From NCBI RefSeq assembly GCF_007829335.1, contig NZ_VIWO01000001.1:682001-746000 (forward strand): 64,000 nt of DNA, written 5' to 3'. The notes beneath the pieces were generated by a model. The model was not told the DNA's origin. It worked only from the letters and a program-made list of their open reading frames with translations, and did not search any database. Below are positions 4-31,168 of the stretch, piece by piece (the first letter of the stretch is position 1; each line of letters opens with the position of its first letter). The stretch is from Chitinophaga polysaccharea (GTDB taxonomy: Bacteria > Bacteroidota > Bacteroidia > Chitinophagales > Chitinophagaceae). Made by a program: the position numbers and the translations under genes.

Positions 4-2325
4 TTAGGCTACCCTGTAATCATATAAATACCTTTGGAAATTGATAAATATCCTTCTTATGTCATCAGCATCGCCCAGTATATCTAGTGCATCATTAACA
101 GAATGATATTTTAACTGCAGTAGTGCAGGTAATTTTTCCTGATCGAGTTCCTCTACACCGATTTCAATGTACTTTGACAATACAAACTCGATGAACTCTC
201 TTTGCTCCGAACTTAATCCTTTCATAATTTCAGGCTTGGCATTGCTTACTCTTTCGTCACGTGTTATTGGTACTACAGCAAAAGAAATAAATTCCAAGAC
301 ATCAAATAAATCACTACGCTCTGCGTCTACTACTTTTTGTAGGTTCGTTAACTGATCACTGTCAAAACCAGCTTCTTCCAACCGCAGCAACAAAGCTTTT
401 CGTGTAGTAGGATTAGACCAAATATTTCTTAATTCGGCCTCACTATTAAACACATCAGGAAACTTACCAAACAGCCTGTCTAAAAATTCCTGCATAGATA
501 TAGGCTTGCCATCTGCGTCAAAAAAAGCCGTTTCAATAGTATGGGTTATTTCCTGTTCTTTACCGTCGCCCAGCTTTATTTTAATAATCTTCTTTTTAGG
601 AAAATGTTCACCGTCACTACTTCCATAATCACCAGATGGCTCTTCAACAACTGTAGGTCCGTTGAATGGCTCAGGGTCCGCCGGAACTGGCTCTTCTGGC
701 TCGCCGTCCCATTCGGAATCTTTAAAATGCTCATATGCTTTTACAAAGTCGTATATGGTAAAGTAATCCTTACCTTCGAAAACACGCGTTCCACGTCCTA
801 CTATTTGTTTAAATTCTATTATATCTTTCACGGGACGCAACAAAACTATATTACGAACATTCTTGGCATCCACGCCTGTTGATAGTTTATAAGATGTTGT
901 AAGAATCGTTGGAATGCTTTTTTCGTTATCCTGAAATTCTCGTAAATATTGTTCTCCCAGTTCGCCATCATTTGCAGTAACACGAACACAATAATTAGGT
1001 TCTGTGCTTTTCTTTAACTGATTAATAAATATTCTGATAAGATTGGCATGTTTTTGTGTCCTACAAAACACTATGGTTTTCTCGGTCTGGTCTATTTCAT
1101 TCATGAATATCCTAACGCGCTCTTTCTCACGTTCGTACATCTCAATGGTCAGGTTAAAATCCTTTTCCGTATATGTTTTCTTCGGATCAAATACTTCTTC
1201 GCCTTCTACTATTTCATCTTCACTGTCGAATGTATATTCATCCAATGATGTAGTTATTTTACGTACTTTATAAGGGGTCAGGAAACCATCATTGATCCCT
1301 TCTTTCAAAGAGTAGATATATACTGGCTTGCCGAAGTATTTATAAGTGTCGGTATTTTCCCTACGCTTGGGTGTAGCTGTGAGCCCTAATTGTACTGCAG
1401 GCGAAAAATATTCCAATATGCCACGCCATGTACTCTCGTCATTAGCGCCACCACGATGGCACTCATCTATGATAATAAGGTCAAAATAATCTGGTGGATA
1501 TTGCCCGAAATACGGAGTATCGTTAGGGCCACTCATAAAGGTTTGAAATATTGTAAAAAAGATGCTGCCGTTTACGGGTACTTTACCACTTTTCTTTATC
1601 TCTCTGGGCTTGATGCGTACCAGCGCATCTTCTGGGAATGCAGAAAAAGCATTGAATGCCTGATTGGCCAAAATATTCCTGTCGGCAAGGAACAAAATCC
1701 GCGGTCTTCGTGTGCCGTCAAACTTTAAGTTCCAGCGGGCATGAAACAATTTCCAGGCTATCTGAAATGCAATAAATGTTTTACCTGTACCGGTGGCCAA
1801 TGTTAATAATATCCGGGACTGCTTGTTAGCAATGGCATCTATTACACGTTCTACTGCTGTTTCCTGGTAAAAGTGGGGTGTTTTCGTCCTCGTATCGTAT
1901 GGCTCTTCACTTAGTTCCTCCTGCCATTTATTTTCCTGCGGAAAGGTTTTATCCCATAGTTCATCCGGCGTCAGGAAATCCGTTACCCAATCTTCCTTAC
2001 CGCTTTCCATGCATACCTGATATATCTCTTTGCCGTTTGCAGCGTAGGCTGTTTCCAGTTGCAGTTTTATTGCATAGTCTTTCGCCTGACCTACACCCTC
2101 GCCTACATGTTGTTCATCACTTTTTGCCTCTATTACTGCCAGCTTGCGACCTTTATAGGCCAACACATAGTCTGCTTTTAGTGGTGCTTTCCGCCGCTGA
2201 CCAGGCATTATCTTACCGGGTGTTATTGGGTGCTCCCGGTGTACTTTCACCTCACCGCCTGTTACCCAGCCATTGCTGGCGAGCTTGGGGTCTATTAGCT
2301 CAGCTCTTGTTTCGGCTTCATTCAT
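4..2325 (-). CDS. hsdR: Type I restriction enzyme, R (endonuclease/translocase) subunit
   Basis: Motor and nuclease subunit of a type I restriction-modification complex; it translocates and cuts unmethylated foreign DNA with ATP. The 773-residue protein starts with a PD-(D/E)xK-type nuclease domain (D52, then E66-A-K68) typical of the EcoAI/EcoEI branch. The SF2 helicase core follows: Walker A ATGTGKT at 177-183, DECH at 287-290, LTATPKR near 315 and QIVGRGTR near 505. The last ~200 residues match the position of the EcoEI R C-terminal domain. The gene is complete, with its stop at the window's left edge. Its ATG overlaps the hsdS stop by 4 bases (ATGA), so it is the last gene of a translationally coupled hsdM-hsdS-hsdR operon. 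The family call is secure; DNA specificity cannot be read. Confidence 0.96.
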   Translation of the reverse strand: MNEAETRAELIDPKLASNGWVTGGEVKVHREHPITPGKIMPGQRRKAPLKADYVLAYKGRKLAVIEAKSDEQHVGEGVGQAKDYAIKLQLETAYAANGKEIYQVCMESGKEDWVTDFLTPDELWDKTFPQENKWQEELSEEPYDTRTKTPHFYQETAVERVIDAIANKQSRILLTLATGTGKTFIAFQIAWKLFHARWNLKFDGTRRPRILFLADRNILANQAFNAFSAFPEDALVRIKPREIKKSGKVPVNGSIFFTIFQTFMSGPNDTPYFGQYPPDYFDLIIIDECHRGGANDESTWRGILEYFSPAVQLGLTATPKRRENTDTYKYFGKPVYIYSLKEGINDGFLTPYKVRKITTSLDEYTFDSEDEIVEGEEVFDPKKTYTEKDFNLTIEMYEREKERVRIFMNEIDQTEKTIVFCRTQKHANLIRIFINQLKKSTEPNYCVRVTANDGELGEQYLREFQDNEKSIPTILTTSYKLSTGVDAKNVRNIVLLRPVKDIIEFKQIVGRGTRVFEGKDYFTIYDFVKAYEHFKDSEWDGEPEEPVPADPEPFNGPTVVEEPSGDYGSSDGEHFPKKKIIKIKLGDGKEQEITHTIETAFFDADGKPISMQEFLDRLFGKFPDVFNSEAELRNIWSNPTTRKALLLRLEEAGFDSDQLTNLQKVVDAERSDLFDVLEFISFAVVPITRDERVSNAKPEIMKGLSSEQREFIEFVLSKYIEIGVEELDQEKLPALLQLKYHSVNDALDILGDADDIRRIFINFQRYLYDYRVA

Positions 2326-3554
2326 ACCTGTTCGTGTATGGGTTTATGAGTAAGCTCTCCGCTGAAAGCTTTTTGAAGGATGCTTTTTTTGAGTTCTTCC
2401 AGGTCGGCTATTTTTCTTCCATATACTAAATCTAACCTGTGTGTTTGAGTACTACCAATGTCAAATTTCTGCACAAATCTCTTTTGTTGCAATAAAGGCG
2501 GATATAACACTCTGATTTTTCTTAAATCGCCAATGTTTATTTGCATAAGAGCAGCCCCATAAGTCTTCTTCCTAATCTGCTTTTGAATATAATTTGATTT
2601 CAACAGATAGTAACCAAAGGATTGATCTAGGATTTTGCTATTAAAGTTAATAGGCACGATTCCTCTCGTAACGTTTGCTCCTTTTAACTCTGTTGATGCA
2701 ATTGAAATAGTGCCAGTTGTTCCACGAACACACATTAGAATGTCGCCACCTTTTAATGTGGTCCTTGAATAACTATCTGCACGTTCAGGATTAACAAGCT
2801 TGAGGCCCTCTTTGAATATTATTTTAGAATTCAAATCTGTTGGCCTAACAATAGGTAAACCATTTTCAAATTCGTCTCCAGGCTGTACTATACCATAAGA
2901 AAGGGTACAATCAGTTGAAACAATATTTTCTAATGTGGTCTCTTCCCAACCCTCTCCCTTGTTTTCAAACACTTCATTCAAATAACTTTCAAAGAGTTCA
3001 TTAGCATTTCTCAGATTTTGCGCCACATTAGCTTTTGCTCGGTCTATAGCAGCAAAAGCCTTATCTAAAATGGCTACTATTTGTTTTTGTTCCTCCAAAG
3101 ATTTAGGGAAGGGGATGACTACCTCTCTAATTTCTTCTAAATGAAGGTTAGGTACACCAATACCTTTTAATCGTCTGTCGAATTGTCTTTTAGCAAGTGG
3201 AGAATTGAGAAAGTATAGCATAAAATGCGGCATAATCTCTTCCAACACTCTGATGTGAGCCAAACTTACATAAATATCAAAAACTTCATTCCTATCTACA
3301 ATCGCAGCAACACCTGTAGTACCATTTTTAGCTAACAAGATATCATTCATCTTAGGAGCAACACGTCTATGCATTTCCAAATGTTGCTTTTCATCTATAT
3401 ATTTTACATTTTCCCAATCTATTTTTCCGCTTGTAACATTTTTAGACGACAGAAATATTATTCCTTTATCAAAATATTTGGGAGTTTGGTGAGTGCCGTC
3501 TGTTATTTTCTCACATACTTCTTTTAGCTTTTTTGTTTCCCATCCTTTCTTCAT
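2322..3554 (-). CDS. hsdS: Type I restriction-modification specificity subunit
   Basis: DNA-recognition subunit shared by the methylase (M2S) and the restriction complex (R2M2S). The 410 residues show the classic two-half layout: target recognition domain 1 (about 1-150), a central conserved helical repeat (LEEQKQIVAILDKAFAAID), target recognition domain 2 (about 200-350), and a distal repeat (LLQQKRFVQKFD ... ELKKSILQKAFSGEL). The two recognition halves look unrelated, as expected for a bipartite asymmetric target. Its start overlaps the hsdM stop and its stop overlaps the hsdR start, each by 4 bases. The gene is visibly more AT-rich than the downstream chromosome, which is common for exchangeable hsdS genes. 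The recognition sequence is unknown. Confidence 0.95.
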   Translation of the reverse strand: MKKGWETKKLKEVCEKITDGTHQTPKYFDKGIIFLSSKNVTSGKIDWENVKYIDEKQHLEMHRRVAPKMNDILLAKNGTTGVAAIVDRNEVFDIYVSLAHIRVLEEIMPHFMLYFLNSPLAKRQFDRRLKGIGVPNLHLEEIREVVIPFPKSLEEQKQIVAILDKAFAAIDRAKANVAQNLRNANELFESYLNEVFENKGEGWEETTLENIVSTDCTLSYGIVQPGDEFENGLPIVRPTDLNSKIIFKEGLKLVNPERADSYSRTTLKGGDILMCVRGTTGTISIASTELKGANVTRGIVPINFNSKILDQSFGYYLLKSNYIQKQIRKKTYGAALMQINIGDLRKIRVLYPPLLQQKRFVQKFDIGSTQTHRLDLVYGRKIADLEELKKSILQKAFSGELTHKPIHEQV

Positions 3555-5002
3555 ATCAATCCATCTATTTGATCCAATAAGTCATTTGTCTCTGCATCCA
3601 GTTCGCGCATTTCTTTTAATATTTGCTTAGGGCTGCGCAGGATATTTTCCTCTTTTTTATGGGGGTTATTCACGCTGAGATCGCACGTGTCAATGTCGAT
3701 ATCTACCATCTTCACGGTCCAACTGTATTCACTATCTGCCTTTGTCTTTTGCAGTTTTAAGAAATTCTCCAGATCTTTTTCATTCAGTGCATTGGTCTTA
3801 CCTAGGTTACGGCTTCGATTAAACTGATAATACCAGATTTTACGTGTTGCTGTTCCTTTATCAAAAAATAACACCACGGTTTTCACACCTGCACCGGTGA
3901 ATGTACCACCGGGCATATCCAGTATGGTATGCAGGTTGCAACTCTCCAATAGTAACTTACGCAGCTGTATACTGGCTTTATCGGTATTACTGAGAAACGT
4001 GTTTTTTATCACTACACCAGCCCTGCCGTTGGCCTTCAGTATTTTTATAAAATGCTGCATGAACAGATAAGCGGTCTCGCTGCTGCGTATCGTAAAGTTT
4101 TCCTGAACCTCAGCACGCTCTTTACCGCCAAATGGAGGGTTGGCCAGCACTACATTGTATCGGTCTTTATCGCTTATGTCATTTATGTTTTCGCTCAGCG
4201 TATTGGTGTGTATAATATTGGGGGCTTCGATGCCGTGCAATATCATGTTCATTACCCCTATTATATAAGCCAGTGATTTCTTTTCATTGCCGTAAAAAGT
4301 TTTCTTTTGTAAGGTTTCCATATCTCTGGTGCTCAACTTCCCCTGCTTCAGGTACTCAAACGCCTCTACAAGAAAGCCCGCACTGCCCGCTGCCCCGTCA
4401 TAAATGGTTTCACCGATCTTTGGAGCCACTACTTTTATAATAGTTTTAATAAGTGGGCGCGGCGTGTAGTACTCGCCACCGTTACGCCCCGCATTGCCCA
4501 TGTTCTTGATCTTGTCTTCGTACAAGCTACTCATTTCATGCTTTTCGGCATGTGTACGAAAACGAAGTTCGTCAACACGGTTTACCACCTCGCGAAGGTT
4601 GTAACCGCTTTGTACCTTATTCTTCAGCTCATGAAATATCTCACCTATTTTGTACTCTATAGTATCAGGATGTTCTGCTGTTGTACGAAACTTACGCAGG
4701 TAAGGAAACAATTTGCCATCCACAAAGTCCTTTAGGTCATCGCCAGTCAGTGCTTTGTGATTATCCAGTTTACCCTCTTTCGTTTTAGGGCATGCCCATA
4801 CATTCCATTTGTATTTGTCTGAAATTATTGGTGCGTATGTTTTGCCAGATAATCTTGCCTCAGCTTCTTTTGATCTTTCTAAATCATCAAGGTATTTGAG
4901 AAACAATATCCAGGAAGTCTGCTCTACGTAATCCAGCTCACTGCTGCATCCGGCATCTTTCCACAGATGGTCGTCAATGTTTTTAAAAGTTTGTTCGAAC
5001 AT
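3551..5002 (-). CDS. hsdM: Type I restriction-modification DNA methyltransferase subunit (N6-adenine)
   Basis: Methylates adenine in the host copy of the target using S-adenosylmethionine, protecting it from HsdR. The 483-residue protein has the helical HsdM N-terminal domain (about 1-140), the GEYYTPR signature at 176-182, SAM-binding motif I DGAAGSAGF at 202-210 and the catalytic NPPF at 288-291. Length is normal for the family. It is the first gene of the operon, so the host can be methylated before HsdR appears. The start is the ATG at 5002; 689 bases without a supported gene lie upstream, including a small inverted repeat that might serve as an operator. Confidence 0.96.
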   Translation of the reverse strand: MFEQTFKNIDDHLWKDAGCSSELDYVEQTSWILFLKYLDDLERSKEAEARLSGKTYAPIISDKYKWNVWACPKTKEGKLDNHKALTGDDLKDFVDGKLFPYLRKFRTTAEHPDTIEYKIGEIFHELKNKVQSGYNLREVVNRVDELRFRTHAEKHEMSSLYEDKIKNMGNAGRNGGEYYTPRPLIKTIIKVVAPKIGETIYDGAAGSAGFLVEAFEYLKQGKLSTRDMETLQKKTFYGNEKKSLAYIIGVMNMILHGIEAPNIIHTNTLSENINDISDKDRYNVVLANPPFGGKERAEVQENFTIRSSETAYLFMQHFIKILKANGRAGVVIKNTFLSNTDKASIQLRKLLLESCNLHTILDMPGGTFTGAGVKTVVLFFDKGTATRKIWYYQFNRSRNLGKTNALNEKDLENFLKLQKTKADSEYSWTVKMVDIDIDTCDLSVNNPHKKEENILRSPKQILKEMRELDAETNDLLDQIDGLI

Positions 5003-24074: not shown

Positions 24075-24090
24075 TGTTCCACGTGGAACA
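24075..24090. promoter_or_regulatory. parS site 1 (ParB-binding centromere)
   Basis: TGTTCCACGTGGAACA is a perfect 16-bp palindrome with the GTTCCACGTGGAAC form of the bacterial parS consensus (GTTTCACGTGAAAC in Bacillus). It is the first of four in 770 bases. Confidence 0.9.
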
Positions 24091-24123
24091 TACAGAAATG
24101 AAAATATCCTGAGATAAGCTTAA

Positions 24124-24139
24124 TGTTCCACGTGGAACA
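24124..24139. promoter_or_regulatory. parS site 2
   Basis: An identical 16-bp palindrome, 49 bases from site 1; here symmetry extends to AATG...CATT (20 bp). Confidence 0.9.
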
Positions 24140-24762
24140 TTAATAAACTCTCTTGAAATGCAAGGAGGTTTACTATTGAGCTTCGTGGCCAAAAATAAGC
24201 CGCAGGAGCAAGCATTTGTATTCGCATTTCGCTTTAACAACTCTAAAGTGAAAGTTCTCATGACAGCACTCTCCCTCCTACCAAACGGATATACCACTAA
24301 TGGGATGACTAGAAAACCAGACAGCTCTTTGCCGCCGTTGGTCCCCTCTTTTATTATACCCTAAAACAAAAGCTGAAGTTCTCATTAGGTGGTATATCGC
24401 AATTACTATCTATCGTCCTGGCTTACTTTATTCCTGGAGCAAACCTGATTTCTACTTTCATTAGTTTTGCCAGGTAAGCTTAGTGCATTTCTCTTATATA
24501 GCCGGGTATCGAAAGTACCTACTACCTCTTGCGGCCTATGAATAAAATATCTTCGCACCAGCAGGTGCATATAATTCGTCGTCACCTGGAACGGTTCTCT
24601 TCCTCTCTATTCTTGTCTATATCAACTTCCATCAATCCGGATACTGGTCGAAAAACAGGAGTAATATCTTCAATAGTAGATCTCCCAAAAACAATCGATC
24701 ATGTCATCGTCAGACTATCAAAATCCCAAAACTAAATCCTCTACAATAAATCGTTGAACTGT

Positions 24763-24790
24763 CCTCAATGTTCCACGTGGAACATTGAGG
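24763..24790. promoter_or_regulatory. parS site 3 within a 28-bp perfect palindrome
   Basis: The parS core lies at 24769-24784 and the symmetry continues for six more bases each side (CCTCAA ... TTGAGG). Symmetry beyond the ParB core could add hairpin or terminator function. Confidence 0.9.
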
Positions 24791-24826
24791 AAGGACATTT
24801 AAGAACTTGCCCTCTCTAAAAAACAA

Positions 24827-24850
24827 AAGATGTTCCACGTGGAACATCTT
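24827..24850. promoter_or_regulatory. parS site 4 within a 24-bp perfect palindrome
   Basis: The core lies at 24831-24846, flanked by AAGA and TCTT. It is 62 bases from site 3 and just beyond the end of ybeY. Confidence 0.9.
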
Positions 24851-25369: not shown

Positions 25370-25401
25370 TTTGACATATTGGTCTTACAGGACTACCTTT
25401 G
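25370..25401 (+). promoter_or_regulatory. Bacteroidota-type promoter of the feoA-like gene
   Basis: TTTG (25370-25373), 20 bases, then TACCTTTG (25394-25401) match the -33/-7 consensus of the phylum. The preferred start codon lies 29 bases downstream, giving a short leader. Confidence 0.75.
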
Positions 25402-25429
25402 CCTATACAAGCATCAGTATGCCGGAACT

Positions 25430-25693
25430 ATGTTTAAACAGATTAACAAGCAGGAAATGAAAAAAGGCATTATAAAATTGTCATCCCTGACCACAGGAAA
25501 GAGTGCAGTAATCATAGAATTTGAAAAAGATGATCTTCACATCAAACTCATGGAAATGGGTTGCGTACCAGGAGAAACAGTAAAGATTGAAAAAATAGCA
25601 CCACTGGGAGACCCCATTTCAATTATGGTGGCCGGTTATAATCTCTCACTTCGCAAAACAGAAGCTGATCATATTTGGGTAGAGGAAATTTAA
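25430..25693 (+). CDS. feoA: FeoA-domain protein
   Basis: Small SH3-like protein (87 residues from ATG 25430; another ATG at 25457 gives 78). The FeoA signature is clear: LSSLTTGKSAVIIEFE, then KLMEMGCVPGETVKIEKIAPLGDPISIMVAGYNLSLRKTEADHIWVEE. FeoA assists the ferrous iron transporter FeoB, but no feoB is next to it, so the partner is elsewhere or this is a free-standing regulator. The longer frame starting at TTG 25379 lies upstream of the predicted transcription start and is unlikely. Confidence 0.85.
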   Translation: MFKQINKQEMKKGIIKLSSLTTGKSAVIIEFEKDDLHIKLMEMGCVPGETVKIEKIAPLGDPISIMVAGYNLSLRKTEADHIWVEEI

Positions 25694-25785
25694 TTTTCCT
25701 CCTTTTTGTACCAGGAAAAAATTTTTTTTGAAAAAAACCTAGAAAATCGGGGAAATTTCCCGTTTTTCTGGTGCTTTTACCCGTT

Positions 25786-25938
25786 TTATCCCCATTTTTA
25801 AGCGTTTTTTGAAGAAAAAAGAAAAAATTTTTTTGAAAATTAGTTCCCTTTTAGAAAACTCACCTCATTTTATCCCCATTTTTCTTCCTCCCCTTTCAAA
25901 TAAAATTCTTCTCTGGCAAAACCGGCGATTTATCCCCA
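25786..25938 (+). repeat. Three direct repeats of TTATCCCCA
   Basis: TTATCCCCA followed by TT occurs at 25786-25794, 25870-25878 and 25930-25938 in the same orientation. It differs from the DnaA box TTATCCACA at one base. Spacing is 84 and 60 bases, in the AT-rich left part of the region. Confidence 0.65.
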
Positions 25939-26099
25939 TTCCAATACACTTGCTTCTCAAAAAAAAAATTTGCATTTATGTTTTCATTCTTAATACCTCC
26001 AAAAACTATTGCTCTAATAACAAGTTGAAAATTTACAGACAAACATATTGCCTCACACTTTCCTATTTTCTGAAATCCTGGCAAGATACCAACTCATAA

Positions 26100-27060
26100 A
26101 AAAATAGCCCATTCTCAGCGCCTGTCGATTGACCCTTAATTATTCTCCTCCAAACAACTATCTGGTTGCTCAAAAATATTCGATTCTCAAGAGCTATCCA
26201 GTGCAGGGAGAATAAGCTCCTATAGGATATACTGGCGTACCCAAAGCGAAACAAAAAATATCTAATTCTCAACACGCTCCTGGTTGGCTGAGCTTTTCGC
26301 CAATATATTTTTGCTGGGTAACGCCACAAAATTTTAGAATATCGAAACCTCAGCTGACAGGAAAGCCGCTGAGATTCTTGTAAAAAATGAAATTAATTAC
26401 CTTACCAGTACAACAGAAAAATATCCGATTCTCAGCGCTTTCGTTGCCTCATGAGAATCCGGTATAAAGCACTTATCCACACCATCAATAAAACTGGAAT
26501 CATTTATTCAATTCTCAGCGTATTGGTAAGGCGCTGAGAATTGAACAAAATCAGGAGGTCCTTCCATAGGCCCGGATATGTTTGATTCTCAGCAAACTAT
26601 GAATGCCTTGACAATTCAATGAAAACAAACTCCCTGTGGTAACCCCGTGATAAGAAAAAATATTTGATTCTCATGAGCCTCTTTTAAAATCAATTTATAC
26701 CCCTGGTTCTCTTGTTTATACACGTCAAAAGCACAGCGCAAAGACAGATATCCACCTCAAAACGCGTTTCCAAAATGCACTTATTAACATTAAAATCGTT
26801 GCCTCCGAAAAAACAAACGCTGACAATCGAATAAAAGTAAAACACTCGCCATTACCCAAGGGAAAAGAAAAAAAGAGGAATGTCAGGGCCTTTAGAAAAT
26901 AGGCTCCAGGAAGATGATACTACTATTTCACAGATTGCTGTACAGAAATAATCAAAATATGGCGTTCTCAGCGCAATAGCAGGCCGCTGAGAATTAAAAA
27001 AATTTAGACTTCCTTGGCTTACCCAATGGCATTTTAAAATATTAGATTCTCACAGCCTTT
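26100..27060 (+). repeat. Degenerate ~82-bp array of palindromic ATTCTCAGCG units
   Basis: The core ATTCTCA recurs at 26111, 26183, 26265, 26428, 26511, 26585, 26667 and 27046, with a one-mismatch copy (GTTCTCAGCG) at 26964. A decayed copy (CCTCAGC) near 26348 fills the gap between 26265 and 26428, so spacing is close to 72-83 bases throughout the left part. Each core is usually preceded by an A-rich AAATAT stretch. Several are followed about 11-20 bases later by the inverse CGCTGAGAAT, as at 26511-26520/26532-26541 and 26964-26973/26985-26994. Inverted cores also occur at 26452 and 27175. The units could be protein-binding iterons of the origin or folded repeats; no known element was recognised. 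Confidence 0.75.
26473..26481 (+). promoter_or_regulatory. DnaA box (perfect)
   Basis: TTATCCACA matches the DnaA-box consensus exactly. It sits between two units of the ATTCTCAGCG array. Confidence 0.65.
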
Positions 27061-27110
27061 AAAAACATATTCACACCCTTTTCAACAGGATTATTAATAA
27101 GTAAACCGGT

Positions 27111-27119
27111 TTATCCACA
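27111..27119 (+). promoter_or_regulatory. DnaA box (perfect)
   Basis: TTATCCACA, same orientation as the box at 26473. A one-mismatch box (ATATTCACA, 27067-27075) lies 44 bases upstream. Confidence 0.65.
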
Positions 27120-27199
27120 TAAAAATCCGTTGGTTTGTATTTTAAAACAGCATCTAAAAAGCCTCATAACTTGCTGAGAATTAATTATTTCGCATATAA

Positions 27200-27242
27200 A
27201 TACGAAGGCCATGAGAATATCACATTCTCATGGCCTTCGTAT
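27200..27242 (-). terminator. Perfect 19-bp hairpin downstream of nadA
   Basis: ATACGAAGGCCATGAGAAT (27200-27218) pairs perfectly with 27224-27242 around a 5-base loop. It lies 65 bases beyond the nadA stop and could terminate its transcript, although the following minus-strand sequence is only weakly T-rich (TTATATG). The loop-proximal arms contain the same TGAGAAT/ATTCTCA core as the array to the left, so an origin-related role is also possible. Confidence 0.65.
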
Positions 27243-27306
27243 TACTTTCTTTAATTCTATTAACGCAAACTAAAATTCAAATAAAATTGATATTCAATCA
27301 CTTATG

Positions 27307-28314
27307 CTAAAGTCCAGCTTGAGCACTGATCTCCAACATCCGCTCAATTGGCTTTTTAGCTGCTATTCGCAGGTTTTCTTCCATTATAATTTCTGGTTGT
27401 TCATACTCCATACACAGGTACAACTTTTCCAGGGTATTTAATTTCATATGTGGACAATCATTGCAAGCACATGCATTGTTAGGAGGAGCTGGGATAAAAG
27501 TCTTACCTGGATTTTCTTTTTGCATCTGGTGGAGAATACCCGTTTCCGTTACCACGATATACTCCTGGGCATCGTCTTTATGACTGAATTTCAACAACCC
27601 GGTGGTGGATCCGATGTAATCAGCGATAGCCAATACGGCAGGTTCACACTCTGGATGTGCTATCACTTTGGCTTTGGGATGACGGATCTTCAGTTTGGTA
27701 ATCTTTTCCAGCGAGAAAATTTCGTGTACCATACAGGCACCGTTCCACAGAACCATGTCTCTACCCGTTTTTTTGATCAAATAAGCCCCTAAATTTCGAT
27801 CCGGTGCAAATATGATGGGCTGATTGTGGGGGATGCTTTCGATGATTTTTTCGGCATTAGAGCTCGTGCAAATGATATCGCTGAGTGCTTTGATACCCGC
27901 TGAGCAGTTAATATAGGAAATCACGATATGATCGGGGTAACGGTCCCTGAACTTCTTAAACAGCTCAGGAGGCGCGCTATCTGCCAATGAGCACCCCGCT
28001 TTCAGATCGGGAAGCAGTACTTTTTTCTGAGGGCTCAAGATTTTCGCTGTTTCCGCCATAAAGTGAACCCCGGCAAAAACAATCATGTCTGCATCAGTTT
28101 GCGCGGCCTGCTGACTCAGCCCCAAACTGTCTCCGATGTAGTCTGCGATATCCTGAATATCCGGCTCCTGGTAATAGTGTGCAAGGACAATGGCGTTTTT
28201 CTTCTTTTTTAAATTTTCAATCGCTGCAAACAAATCCAGCGAAGGATCGACTGCTATATCCAAAAATCCATTGTGTTGCAAATTTTTTTTCGCTTCAGCG
28301 ATTTCCATAATCAT
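27307..28314 (-). CDS. nadA: Quinolinate synthase A
   Basis: [4Fe-4S] enzyme that condenses iminoaspartate and dihydroxyacetone phosphate to quinolinate in de novo NAD synthesis. The 335-residue protein shows [28 protein letters not shown] and [17 protein letters not shown]. The three cluster cysteines are in [15 protein letters not shown] and [12 protein letters not shown]. No nadB or nadC is adjacent. Codon 3 is an alternative ATG start. A minus-strand -7 element lies 89 bases upstream. The gene sits between two origin-like non-coding stretches. Confidence 0.97.
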
Positions 28315-28402
28315 AGCTATATACTTATTTATTTATTTAAAAGAAAAAGCCCACTACTATTAGGGCTGTGAATATGTGGAAATTTAATTTCCAGCACTTG
28401 TA

Positions 28403-28410
28403 CAAATGTA
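28403..28410 (-). promoter_or_regulatory. -7 element of a possible nadA promoter
   Basis: Read on the minus strand the bases give TACATTTG, a perfect TAnnTTTG. No good -33 TTTG is found at the usual distance. It would give a leader of about 85 bases containing a small AGCCC/GGGCT hairpin (28347-28367). Confidence 0.35.
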
Positions 28411-28765
28411 GTTGTTATTCCTTTTTACTGTACTTTCCACATGAAATTAACATGCTCTTCCCGCGTCATTACTGGATTTTCTTACTTTCATCCACATACG
28501 TGGATATCATTGTTCGTGAAAATCTTTTTTGTTAGCTGTGTATTAGGAAAATGTTAAAAGAAGCCATTTACTATCCACAAAATCACACTTGGATTTTTAA
28601 GGGTAAATTTAACCACAATAACAAAATTAGTTTTACCTGTGAACAATGGCACCTTTTCCCACCTTATTTTGCGTTTTACAGGGGTTTTTACACATCAATT
28701 GTGGAAAAAAACAGACGGGGAATGAAAAATGGTCAAAATGCATACAGTGCTAAAATAGGCTTGTT

Positions 28766-28774
28766 TTATTCACA
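28766..28774 (+). promoter_or_regulatory. DnaA box (perfect, TTATTCACA)
   Basis: Exact match to TTATnCACA. It faces the inverted box at 28812 across 37 bases. Confidence 0.65.
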
Positions 28775-28811
28775 TTTTTATGTGGATTGCCGAAATAGGT
28801 TTTTTAACAAT

Positions 28812-28820
28812 TGTGAATAA
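28812..28820 (-). promoter_or_regulatory. DnaA box (perfect, inverted)
   Basis: TGTGAATAA on the plus strand, the complement of TTATTCACA, within the same cluster. Confidence 0.65.
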
Positions 28821-29018
28821 CCGGGTAGCAACCATTTAAAGGGAATTTTACATAAAATGTAGCAATGACAGGGGTTTAAAACAGCAGAAAGAGAAGTAAA
28901 AACGAGGTTGTTGATAATCGATTCATGTGGAAAACCTGTGAATGATACATAGTCCACAAAAGTGTTATAAGCGGCTGAAACTCAATACAGGAAAGGCTTT
29001 CAAAGAGAAAAATACTCT

Positions 29019-29050
29019 TTTGCAGTTACAGTTATTTTATTCTATTTTTG
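29019..29050 (+). promoter_or_regulatory. Bacteroidota-type promoter of ppiD
   Basis: TTTG (29019-29022), 20 bases, TATTTTTG (29043-29050) fit the phylum consensus exactly. The ATG follows 30 bases later. Confidence 0.8.
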
Positions 29051-29080
29051 CTATCCTTAAAAATGTAGACTATATAATAT

Positions 29081-31168
29081 ATGTCAGTAATTCAGAAAAT
29101 CAGGGACAAATACGCCGTCATGATCGTTGTAGTGATTTGCCTGGCTATTGTTAGTTTCCTGTTGCAGGATGCCTTTTTTGGCAAAAGTTCTCTAACCCGT
29201 CGCAGCACGAGCGTTGGAAAAGTAAACGGTGAAGATCTGGACTTGTCAGATTACCAACGCCGCATTCAGGACGCAGAAAACAACGCGCGTCAGCAAATGC
29301 CAAATATTGACGAACAAACCCGTCAATATATCCGCGAACAGGTTTGGAACCAGTTTCTGAATGAAAAGATTATGCAGGCTCAGTACGAAAAGCTGGGTAT
29401 CGTAGTAACTGAAGCGGAAGTAGTAGATCAGATCAGAGGTAAAAATCCGAACCCGGTTGTTGTACAACAATTTACCCGCGACGGACAATTTGATCGTAAT
29501 GCATTGCAGCAGGCTATTTCACAAGCTGGCAACAACCCTCAGGTACGTGAAGGTTTCCACCAACTGGAATCCTATATTGCTAAATACCAGGAGCAACTGA
29601 AATATATGACACTGGTAAAGCAGGGAGTATATTATCCTAAGTGGTTGGCGAAACAACAACAGGATGATAATAACCAAACAGCCACTGTTTCTTATGTAAG
29701 TGTACCTTATGCTACTATCGGTGATTCTACTGTTAAGGTAACTGATGCTGAACTGAACCGCTTTATCCAGGATCACAAACAACTCTTTAAAGTAGAAGAA
29801 TCCCGCAAGGTAGAATATGTATCTTTTGATGCTATTCCATCTGCCGCTGATTCCGCTGCTGCTATTTCACAGATTGTAGCTATGAAAGCTGAGCTGGATA
29901 CCACTAAAGATGTGGCTGGTTTTATCAATCGTAACTCTGATATTAAATACTTCGACGGCTATATTTCTAAAAATGAATCCAAAATTCCGATGAAAGATTC
30001 TATCGTGAATCTGCCAGTAGGTGAAATATTTGGACCATATTATGATAACAACCTGATCGTGTATGCGAAAATGGTTGATCGTAAGAATATGCCTGATAGC
30101 GTAAAAGTTCGTCATATCCTGATCGCATCCGGTGCACAAGGCGGTTTACCAGATTCTATTGCCAAAAAACGTGCAGATAGCATTGAAGTAGCTGTAAAAG
30201 GTGGTGCCGACTTTAAAGCGCTCGTGGCACAGTATTCTGATGATCCAGGCAGCAAACAAACTGGAGGAGAATATGATTTAACTCCGTCTTCTCAATTTGT
30301 TCCTGAATTTAAAGAATTTGCTTTCGATGGTACTAAAGGTCAGATCAAAACAGTGAAAACCCAGTTTGGTTACCACGTAATGCAGATCATGGATCAGAAG
30401 AATATCGGTCCAGCCGTTAAAGTGGCTTACCTCGGTAAATCTGTAGATGCCAGCAAGGAAACAAACAATGCTGCTTTTGGTGCTGCGAGTGATTTCGCAG
30501 GAAAAGCCCGTACACAAGCTGCATTTGAGAAAACAGTACAGGAAGGAAAGCTGAATAAAAGAATTGCGGATAATGTTCGTCCAATGGACTTCGTAGTACC
30601 GGGTGTTGGCCAGGCACGCGAACTGGTACGTTGGGCTTACGAAGCTAAAAAAGGAGACGTAAGTAACGTATTCACTTTCGATGATAAATACGTAGTAGGT
30701 GTTTTAACCAGCATCCGCGAAGAAGGTACCGCCCCACTGGATGATGTAAGACCTCAGGTGGAAGCAGAAGTAAAGAAACACAAGAAAGCTGAGCAGATTA
30801 TGGCTAAGCTGCAAACTCCTGCGTCACTGGATGCTGCTGCCAAAACAACCAATCAACCAGTGTTAAAAGCTGAAGGCGTTTCTTTCGGTACTCCATTTAT
30901 TGCTTCATTGGGCTTCGAACCACGTGTAGCAGGTGCTGCCTTCAATAAGAAATGGGGAACCAACGCAGTATCCGCTCCTATAGAAGGTAATGCTGGTGTA
31001 TATGTTATCAAAGTTGATAGCTTTGCACCGTCTACCCAGCCGGCACAGGATGTTGCTTCTCAACAGGCCGCTTACGAACAAGGTGTTAAATCCATGCTGG
31101 ACCAACAGCTGTTTGAAGTGCTGAAGAAGAAGAGCGATGTGAAAGATACCCGTGGTAAATTTTTCTAG
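29081..31168 (+). CDS. ppiD: Periplasmic peptidyl-prolyl isomerase, PpiD/SurA type
   Basis: Membrane-anchored folding factor for proteins leaving the Sec translocon. The 695-residue protein has a short cytoplasmic start, one TM (about 13-31), an SurA-N-like helical chaperone region (about 45-210), and a parvulin PPIase domain (about 340-440: VKVRHILIASGA, GADFKALVAQYSDDPGSKQTGGEYD, VKTQFGYHVMQI). Further helical chaperone-like sequence and a second weak PPIase-like region follow to the end. Size and order are typical of PpiD in Bacteroidota. It has its own promoter and terminator, so it is monocistronic. Confidence 0.93.
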   Translation: MSVIQKIRDKYAVMIVVVICLAIVSFLLQDAFFGKSSLTRRSTSVGKVNGEDLDLSDYQRRIQDAENNARQQMPNIDEQTRQYIREQVWNQFLNEKIMQAQYEKLGIVVTEAEVVDQIRGKNPNPVVVQQFTRDGQFDRNALQQAISQAGNNPQVREGFHQLESYIAKYQEQLKYMTLVKQGVYYPKWLAKQQQDDNNQTATVSYVSVPYATIGDSTVKVTDAELNRFIQDHKQLFKVEESRKVEYVSFDAIPSAADSAAAISQIVAMKAELDTTKDVAGFINRNSDIKYFDGYISKNESKIPMKDSIVNLPVGEIFGPYYDNNLIVYAKMVDRKNMPDSVKVRHILIASGAQGGLPDSIAKKRADSIEVAVKGGADFKALVAQYSDDPGSKQTGGEYDLTPSSQFVPEFKEFAFDGTKGQIKTVKTQFGYHVMQIMDQKNIGPAVKVAYLGKSVDASKETNNAAFGAASDFAGKARTQAAFEKTVQEGKLNKRIADNVRPMDFVVPGVGQARELVRWAYEAKKGDVSNVFTFDDKYVVGVLTSIREEGTAPLDDVRPQVEAEVKKHKKAEQIMAKLQTPASLDAAAKTTNQPVLKAEGVSFGTPFIASLGFEPRVAGAAFNKKWGTNAVSAPIEGNAGVYVIKVDSFAPSTQPAQDVASQQAAYEQGVKSMLDQQLFEVLKKKSDVKDTRGKFF

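Follow-up and report, generated by a model that had tools for sequence, protein, structure and literature searches.

The window, the whole stretch of 64,000 nt analysed here, comes from the forward strand of Chitinophaga polysaccharea (GCF_007829335.1, contig NZ_VIWO01000001.1, positions 682,001-746,000). Within it, feoA and nadA point inward, with convergent 3' ends, to a 1.6-kb gap (25694-27306) that holds an array of short palindromes, and nadA separates this array from a second intergenic region that is the likely chromosome origin. The genes and landmarks of the locus are as follows.

24075..24846, no strand assigned: four exact copies of parS-like TGTTCCACGTGGAACA, at 24075, 24124, 24769 and 24831 (exact match)
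25379..25693, plus strand: feoA (Pfam FeoA), left border of the gap, start uncertain, transcribed towards the array
25786..25938, plus strand: three DnaA-box-like TTATCCCCA, at 25786, 25870 and 25930, one mismatch from TTATCCACA
26473..26481, plus strand: exact DnaA box TTATCCACA, inside the array
27111..27119, plus strand: exact DnaA box TTATCCACA, inside the array
27199..27243, no strand assigned: perfect 20-bp hairpin behind nadA
27307..28314, minus strand: nadA (Pfam NadA), between the array and the likely oriC, transcribed towards the array
28315..29080, no strand assigned: likely oriC (766 bp), lying between nadA and the SurA/PPIase gene, with conserved DnaA boxes and the skew minimum
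29081..31168, plus strand: ppi, a SurA_N/PPIC-type rotamase gene (Pfam), right border of the likely oriC

An earlier, sequence-only reading of the window had placed the array beside DnaA boxes and parS, and both kinds of site were found, as two exact copies of TTATCCACA and four exact copies of the parS-like TGTTCCACGTGGAACA. One TGTTCCACGTGGAACA overlaps the first codons of the mnmG open reading frame, about 2 kb from the array, and the next copy lies 49 bp further on. Farther away, positions 4-5002 carry type I restriction-modification genes, encoding an R-type helicase with an EcoEI_R_C domain, a specificity subunit (Methylase_S) and an HsdM-type methylase.

The repeated unit of the array, which we call the A site, is a 31-bp palindrome of the form ATTCTCAGCGC-N9-GCGCTGAGAAT, described by a weight matrix derived from 24 relatives together with the window. 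Sites at 26797, 26879 and 27151 are weak or single-armed, the first being positioned by its right arm, and a further weak matrix-scored site at 27188, on the hairpin behind nadA, was excluded from the list.

26111..26141, plus strand: A site with an exact left and a degenerate right arm
26183..26213, no strand assigned: A site (palindrome), by weight matrix
26265..26295, no strand assigned: A site (palindrome), by weight matrix and genome pattern search
26346..26376, no strand assigned: A site (palindrome), by weight matrix and genome pattern search
26428..26458, no strand assigned: A site (palindrome), by weight matrix and genome pattern search
26511..26541, no strand assigned: A site S5, arms perfect, preceding the conserved 74-bp step
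26585..26615, no strand assigned: A site, by weight matrix and genome pattern search
26667..26680, plus strand: A half-site, as also in the relatives' consensus
26797..26827, minus strand: A site, right arm only (26819-26827)
26879..26909, plus strand: weak A site
26964..26994, no strand assigned: A site, by weight matrix and genome pattern search
27046..27059, plus strand: A half-site
27151..27181, minus strand: last A site, right arm exact (27173-27181)

Between 26100 and 27060, the motif ATTCTCA occurs eight times in direct and TGAGAAT three times in inverted orientation, compared with a mean of 0.24 and a maximum of 4 in 2000 dinucleotide shuffles, confirming the repeat count that the sequence-only reading had given; the array extends beyond 27060, to about 27181. 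Successive A sites start 72, 82, 81, 82, 83, 74, 82, 130, 82, 85, 82 and 105 bp apart, so that the spacing of about 72-83 bases proposed earlier holds for most steps (72-85 bp) but not for the gaps of 130 and 105 bp. An inverted partner had been described at a variable 11-20 bases, where we found one fixed distance within a 31-bp palindrome, and the AAATAT said to precede each unit closely precedes 6 of the 10 sites with a direct arm. The suggested autocorrelation check did give peaks at lags 83 (z 3.15) and 82 (z 3.02), but lag 2 also reached 3.02; periodicity within the window alone is weak, the relatives carry the weight, and window-only autocorrelation was rejected as sole proof.

A search of the organism's own 7.6-Mb genome, allowing up to 3 mismatches in the two 9-bp arms, returned six palindromes in the window and five further single matches outside it, each with exactly 3 mismatches, while the control palindromes gave 0 matches (backward) or 1 and 2 (two scrambled versions). 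The array is therefore the sole A-site cluster in the genome, with a few weak outlying sites possible, and the many genome copies of a dispersed palindromic repeat of the REP or MITE type were not found in this search with its scrambled controls. The same numbers bear on the idea that the palindromes are operators or terminators for feoA and nadA. Their position near gene ends would suit such a role, as would the hairpin at 27199-27243, which is probably the nadA terminator. However, both genes end, rather than start, at the array, termination would not call for a dozen copies, and elsewhere in the genome there are only those five single matches, against 1 and 2 for scrambled palindromes; we regard this explanation as highly improbable. 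The hairpin itself contains ATTCTCATGG/CCATGAGAAT, resembling the A-site arms, and BLASTN places it, along with the last A site, among the pieces best conserved across species. A long shared gene is also unlikely, since the longest open reading frames in the array part span only 31-119 aa (30 genomes).

To place the array in relatives, nadA was located in 79 of 79 genomes of the genus and the neighbourhoods of the other 78 were compared locus by locus. BLASTN with the region found it in 25 of the 79 genomes, its own included. By locus comparison, the ATTCTCAGCGC array, hereafter clade 1, is present in 31 of 77 evaluable genomes (own included), repeats of another consensus occupy the same gap in 29 genomes (by eye), and no array was seen by eye in 17 of the 77, where "none" means that no repeat was recognised in gaps of 252-973 bp or in L144, with 1486 bp; L152 and L162, cut by contig ends, were excluded from these counts. 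The sequence-only reading had staked its proposal on the presence of the array in close relatives, and both approaches found it there. Its suggestion of a search across the Chitinophagaceae succeeded within the genus, but a 31-bp site model run over 394 family genomes matched only 3, namely the genome itself, G047 and, with a weak single site, G151. This is a lower bound, given strict filters and few genus members in the sample, and the pattern search and locus-by-locus comparison were therefore used instead. Outside the genus, 15 of 17 nadA loci examined have an open reading frame within 400 bp downstream of nadA, and the repeat of L050 is coding. Typing did not rely on a generic palindrome counter, whose yield was just 0-7 strong palindromes in each gap.

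The layout is conserved more closely than the DNA that it spans. Steps of 81-84 bp occur in 30 of the 31 clade-1 genomes and a 73/74-bp step in 27 (all except L133, L141, L142 and L170), with an interval of 374-389 bp in 21 and one of 194-199 bp in 16. Among 168 clade-1 steps of up to 240 bp, 82 bp was counted 48 times, 83 bp 30 times, 81 bp 18 times and 74 bp 28 times, although these genomes are related and the counts are not independent. In 27 aligned genomes the S4-S5 linker is 34% identical and the arms of S5 are 99% and 95% identical; with the linker diverged and the arms and steps kept, the arms and their spacing are conserved better than the intervening DNA. Not every linker appears free to vary, as the S5-S6 linker is 46% and the S6-S7 linker, which contains a B element (below), 57% identical in the same 27 genomes, and we count this against the reading favoured below. 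Linkers within one genome are only 26-33% alike (five genomes tested), so recent duplication does not explain the A sites.

A degenerate mobile or satellite repeat without function would also produce repeats, and 62-bp units in L143 do look recently duplicated. This explanation is disfavoured by the conserved spacing, which is kept even where the linker is 34% identical, by the single cluster in the genome, by array types that fit the species tree, and by the lack of matches to the A-site pattern in plasmids and of matches to the full pattern in viral contigs (0); we give it a very slim chance. A looser pattern hit at least 120 stretches of viral contigs, and the 80 matches listed each hold a single place.

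Palindromes could fold in a transcript, and a fixed spacing suits RNA too, so that a non-coding RNA with repeated hairpins from the gap, one of the options raised by the sequence-only reading, has to be weighed. The arms pair in the standard way in 77.3% of cells across 91 sites, compared with 77.0% after shuffling, the sites having been selected by score, which lowers variation. In eight orthologous site sets, pairing was not clearly above that of the shuffles: 42 and 44 of 500 shuffles reached the observed value in the two highest sets, and S5 lay below every shuffle. The arms of the A site do not covary, and Rfam returned nothing at the gathering score for the region, its weak matches being to four microRNA models (E 0.13-0.96) on the terminator hairpin. 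Arms without covariation leave a folded RNA unsupported, and we consider it very unlikely.

The sequence-only reading had also noted that the period is close to eight helical turns, so that all units could face one side of a bent DNA. This was not borne out for the palindromes: eight turns in 82 bp would require 10.25 bp per turn, a value that the 74-bp step does not match, and the best period of the palindrome steps is 8.75 bp (R 0.78; R 0.74 at 10.3 bp), which is not a helical turn and leaves placement on one face unsupported. Helical phasing was instead observed in the DnaA boxes that lie between feoA and the palindromes in relatives. In 28 clade-1 genomes, exact TTWTNCACA left of the palindromes occurs 75 times on the plus strand and 4 times on the other, where 2.4 are expected per strand; the corresponding exact counts in L126, L127 and L143 are 55 versus 1, with 1.2 expected. 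With one mismatch allowed, the boxes left of the palindromes number 174 versus 19. L126, L127 and L143 have 18, 22 and 21 boxes (one mismatch) on one strand, mostly in 62-bp steps, and A-tracts were seen between the boxes of their gaps. Steps in the other clade-1 genomes are mainly 50-52, 60-62, 69-73, 81-84 or 102-105 bp. Steps between one-mismatch boxes have a period of 10.45 bp (R 0.78, n=84), which exceeds 1000 jittered sets (at most 0.47) and shuffled sequence (0.13), and when each of the 32 distinct step values was taken once, 0 of 3000 random sets were as periodic. In the relatives, the DnaA boxes are thus phased close to whole helical turns (about 10.4 bp), a result that applies to the boxes and not to the palindromes.

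The box cluster varies among genomes. Exact TTATNCACA occurs 95 times in the feoA-nadA gaps of 31 genomes (2.8 expected), and at least two exact plus-strand boxes lie left of the palindromes in 20 of the 31 clade-1 genomes, with fewer in 11. The window holds no exact TTWTNCACA left of its first scored palindrome, its two exact boxes lying inside the array, and its three TTATCCCCA are probably the decayed counterpart of the relatives' box array. The natural series, from few boxes to 22 at mostly 5, 6, 7, 8 or 10 turns, offers a direct way to test how helical phasing contributes to DnaA assembly.

The region beyond nadA has the features of a likely origin. Bounded on its other side by the SurA/PPIase gene, this gap measures 765-768 bp throughout clade 1 (31 genomes), and its length stays within 750-787 bp in 78 of the 79 genus genomes. 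In the window it contains exact TTWTNCACA at 28686 (+), 28700 (-), 28766 (+), 28812 (-) and 28926 (-), with DnaA boxes conserved in 25 aligned genomes. The cumulative GC-skew minimum of the window falls inside it, at 28663. In 10 of 12 other genomes, a chosen sample rather than the whole set, 20-kb skew is negative to the left and positive to the right of nadA, by only 0.004 in some. In two of these ten genomes (G065 and G073) the exact minimum falls within the gap, and in a third (G053) within nadA; in the remaining seven, as in G017, it lies 4-19 kb to the right of nadA. G017 and G028 are the two genomes lacking the switch at nadA: G017 switches about 19 kb to the right of it, and G028 some 80-100 kb to the left. 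Taken together, these features point to the nadA-SurA/PPIase gap as the likely chromosome origin, about 1.1 kb from the array across nadA. The dnaA gene, at 1380596 (G000:C1), is about 0.67 Mb away from the likely origin; the array is at 708 kb on the same contig. In several genomes made up of a single contig, dnaA lies less than 1.5 kb from the start of the record, so that numbering there seems to begin at dnaA and not at the skew minimum. Searches of the open-licence PMC literature turned up no account of an origin in Chitinophaga, and the present analysis gives an origin location backed by sequence evidence.

In the right half of the array, a second palindrome of the GGGGTAACCCC type, the B element, lies midway between A sites.

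26634..26649, no strand assigned: B element CTGTGGTAACCCCGTG, its centre roughly 41 bp from each neighbouring A centre
26850..26862, no strand assigned: B-like element, asymmetric
27016..27029, no strand assigned: B-like element, asymmetric

The window carries GTGGTAACCCC at the B position, GGGTAACC occurs at one fixed offset, about 41 bp from both A centres, in 12 of the 27 genomes listed, and GGGGTAACCCC is part of the consensus of nine genomes with the 382-bp interval. Other clades appear to have a similar layout in different letters, their groups cl2 to cl6 having been assigned by eye and not by a blind classifier. In cl2, TATAAGGCCTTCA palindromes are accompanied by GTAGGTACCTAC at about 164 bp; cl3, as judged from L184, has mixed arms and GTGGGTACCCAC-like elements every 156-164 bp, and cl6 has AAATCTCA/ATTCTCA palindromes with GTGGTAACCAC. 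The cl2x arrays (L161, L167, L171 and L175) are short in three of the four. In cl5 (L156, L160, L169, L176, L186 and L191), a repeat of TTCAGAAAAA and ATCTATCAC, with a period of about 134 bp in some, may be unrelated to the other arrays, and the six gaps hold no exact TTATNCACA. Between feoA and the array, L168 (2909-4652) encodes two proteins that Pfam assigns to the AraC family of regulators (319 aa) and the SDR family of oxidoreductases (267 aa), and the alignments suggest similar sequence in other cl2, cl2x and cl4 gaps. Placed on the 79-genome tree, the eight array states need 7 changes, the minimum, and array versus none needs 4; on this quick tree, which leaves 23 of its 75 inner branches open and was used without shuffling the labels as a control, the array types agree with the inferred species relationships.

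Regular palindromes beside a likely origin and parS-like sites, differing in sequence between clades at the same place, could also form a second centromere or anchor, at which a protein for partition or membrane anchoring keeps hold of the origin region, and their layout resembles the sopC array of plasmid F (12 x 43 bp; PMC9178275). Candidate binders did not follow the array. A second ParB was rejected because 78 of 79 genomes have one strong HTH_ParB match, array or not; G078 has two equal copies, and the extra weak matches of 15 other genomes do not track the array, so that a cognate ParB-family protein of its own was not found within the HTH_ParB Pfam family in the 79 genomes. A second DnaA was likewise rejected, with one strong DnaA_C match in 79 of 79 (open frames of 243-552 aa) and extra weak, short matches in 13 genomes (8 of type 1, 3 with other arrays and 2 without) that do not track the array. 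No partition gene pair was noticed beside the array in the open reading frame list, which gives protein starts only, and a centromere or anchor leaves the phased DnaA boxes unexplained; we therefore hold it to be unlikely, while giving it more weight than the other alternatives. The palindromes themselves could serve as bait for catching the putative origin-binding protein.

We favour, at slightly better than even chances, a reading in which the feoA-nadA gap is the auxiliary half of the chromosome origin, a docking platform for DnaA and a putative dimeric DNA-binding protein. A protein-docking half of the origin is suggested by the kept spacing, the lack of an evident gene or promoter position, the single cluster per genome, the adjoining likely origin, and the phased boxes that adjoin it in relatives; in short, the gap is best read as a DNA-level platform and not as a gene, promoter or RNA. 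This supports, as the best reading, the origin element or nucleoprotein scaffold of the sequence-only reading, in view of the neighbouring skew switch and conserved DnaA boxes, the phased box array of relatives, and spacing kept better than linkers. The proposal is built on site sequences, spacing and location, box phasing in relatives, arms that do not covary, and agreement with the species tree; from these we infer protein binding, looping and an effect on initiation. Going towards nadA, one-strand DnaA boxes spaced by whole turns would come first, kept in many relatives and decayed in the window, followed by A palindromes interleaved with GGTAACC-type B palindromes, which may be bound by a putative dimeric protein largely dedicated to the locus. 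DnaA oligomers on the phased boxes, together with the palindrome-bound protein, would form a stiff complex that could loop over nadA (about 1.1 kb) and meet DnaA at the oriC beyond it, and this contact might load, restrain or position the initiation complex.

Since 17 genomes show no array, replication itself does not require one, and with six more (cl5) carrying an unrelated-looking repeat, the function is dispensable or replaceable. The few DnaA boxes in cl2 gaps (2 versus 0.7 expected) and cl5 gaps (0 versus 0.35) also count against the auxiliary-origin reading, as do the window's lack of an exact box left of the palindromes, the 11 clade-1 genomes with fewer than two, palindrome steps that favour no helical period, and the displaced skew switches of G017 and G028. 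Tentatively, and with more doubt than confidence, we suggest that a palindrome array welded to phased DnaA boxes represents a new class of origin module, whose putative dedicated protein may have changed specificity together with its sites between clades (ATTCTCA, AAATCTCA, CTATAAGGCC) under a constant layout, as in centromeres.

Several known systems resemble parts of this arrangement. Clusters of DnaA boxes such as datA titrate or inactivate DnaA, and the Chitinophaga boxes likewise form a cluster outside the unwinding region; unlike datA-type clusters, they adjoin the likely origin, are phased and are joined to a palindrome array. The parS sites bound by ParB are palindromic and near the origin, as are the A sites, which differ from them in sequence, the parS-like sites being separate at 24.1-24.8 kb. 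The closest array architecture is that of sopC on plasmid F, a row of twelve 43-bp units that each contain a 16-bp inverted repeat (PMC9178275). Tandem inverted repeats in units of fixed length are likewise found in the window and its relatives, whereas the Chitinophaga array has 31-bp palindromes at 82 bp, is chromosomal, has diverged linkers and is tracked by no second ParB. The bipartite oriC of Helicobacter pylori and other Epsilonproteobacteria (PMC5043019, PMC8235120) has two DnaA-box regions split by one gene near the skew minimum. Chitinophaga resembles this plan in the skew switch at nadA in 10 of 12 genomes sampled (not G017 or G028), and may resemble it in having a box region on either side of a gene: two or more exact plus-strand boxes lie left of the palindromes in 20 of 31 clade-1 genomes but none in the window, where two exact boxes lie inside the array. 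In contrast to the H. pylori arrangement, the intervening gene is nadA and not dnaA, which is about 0.67 Mb away, and the second half combines same-strand boxes, phased in relatives, with A and B palindromes.
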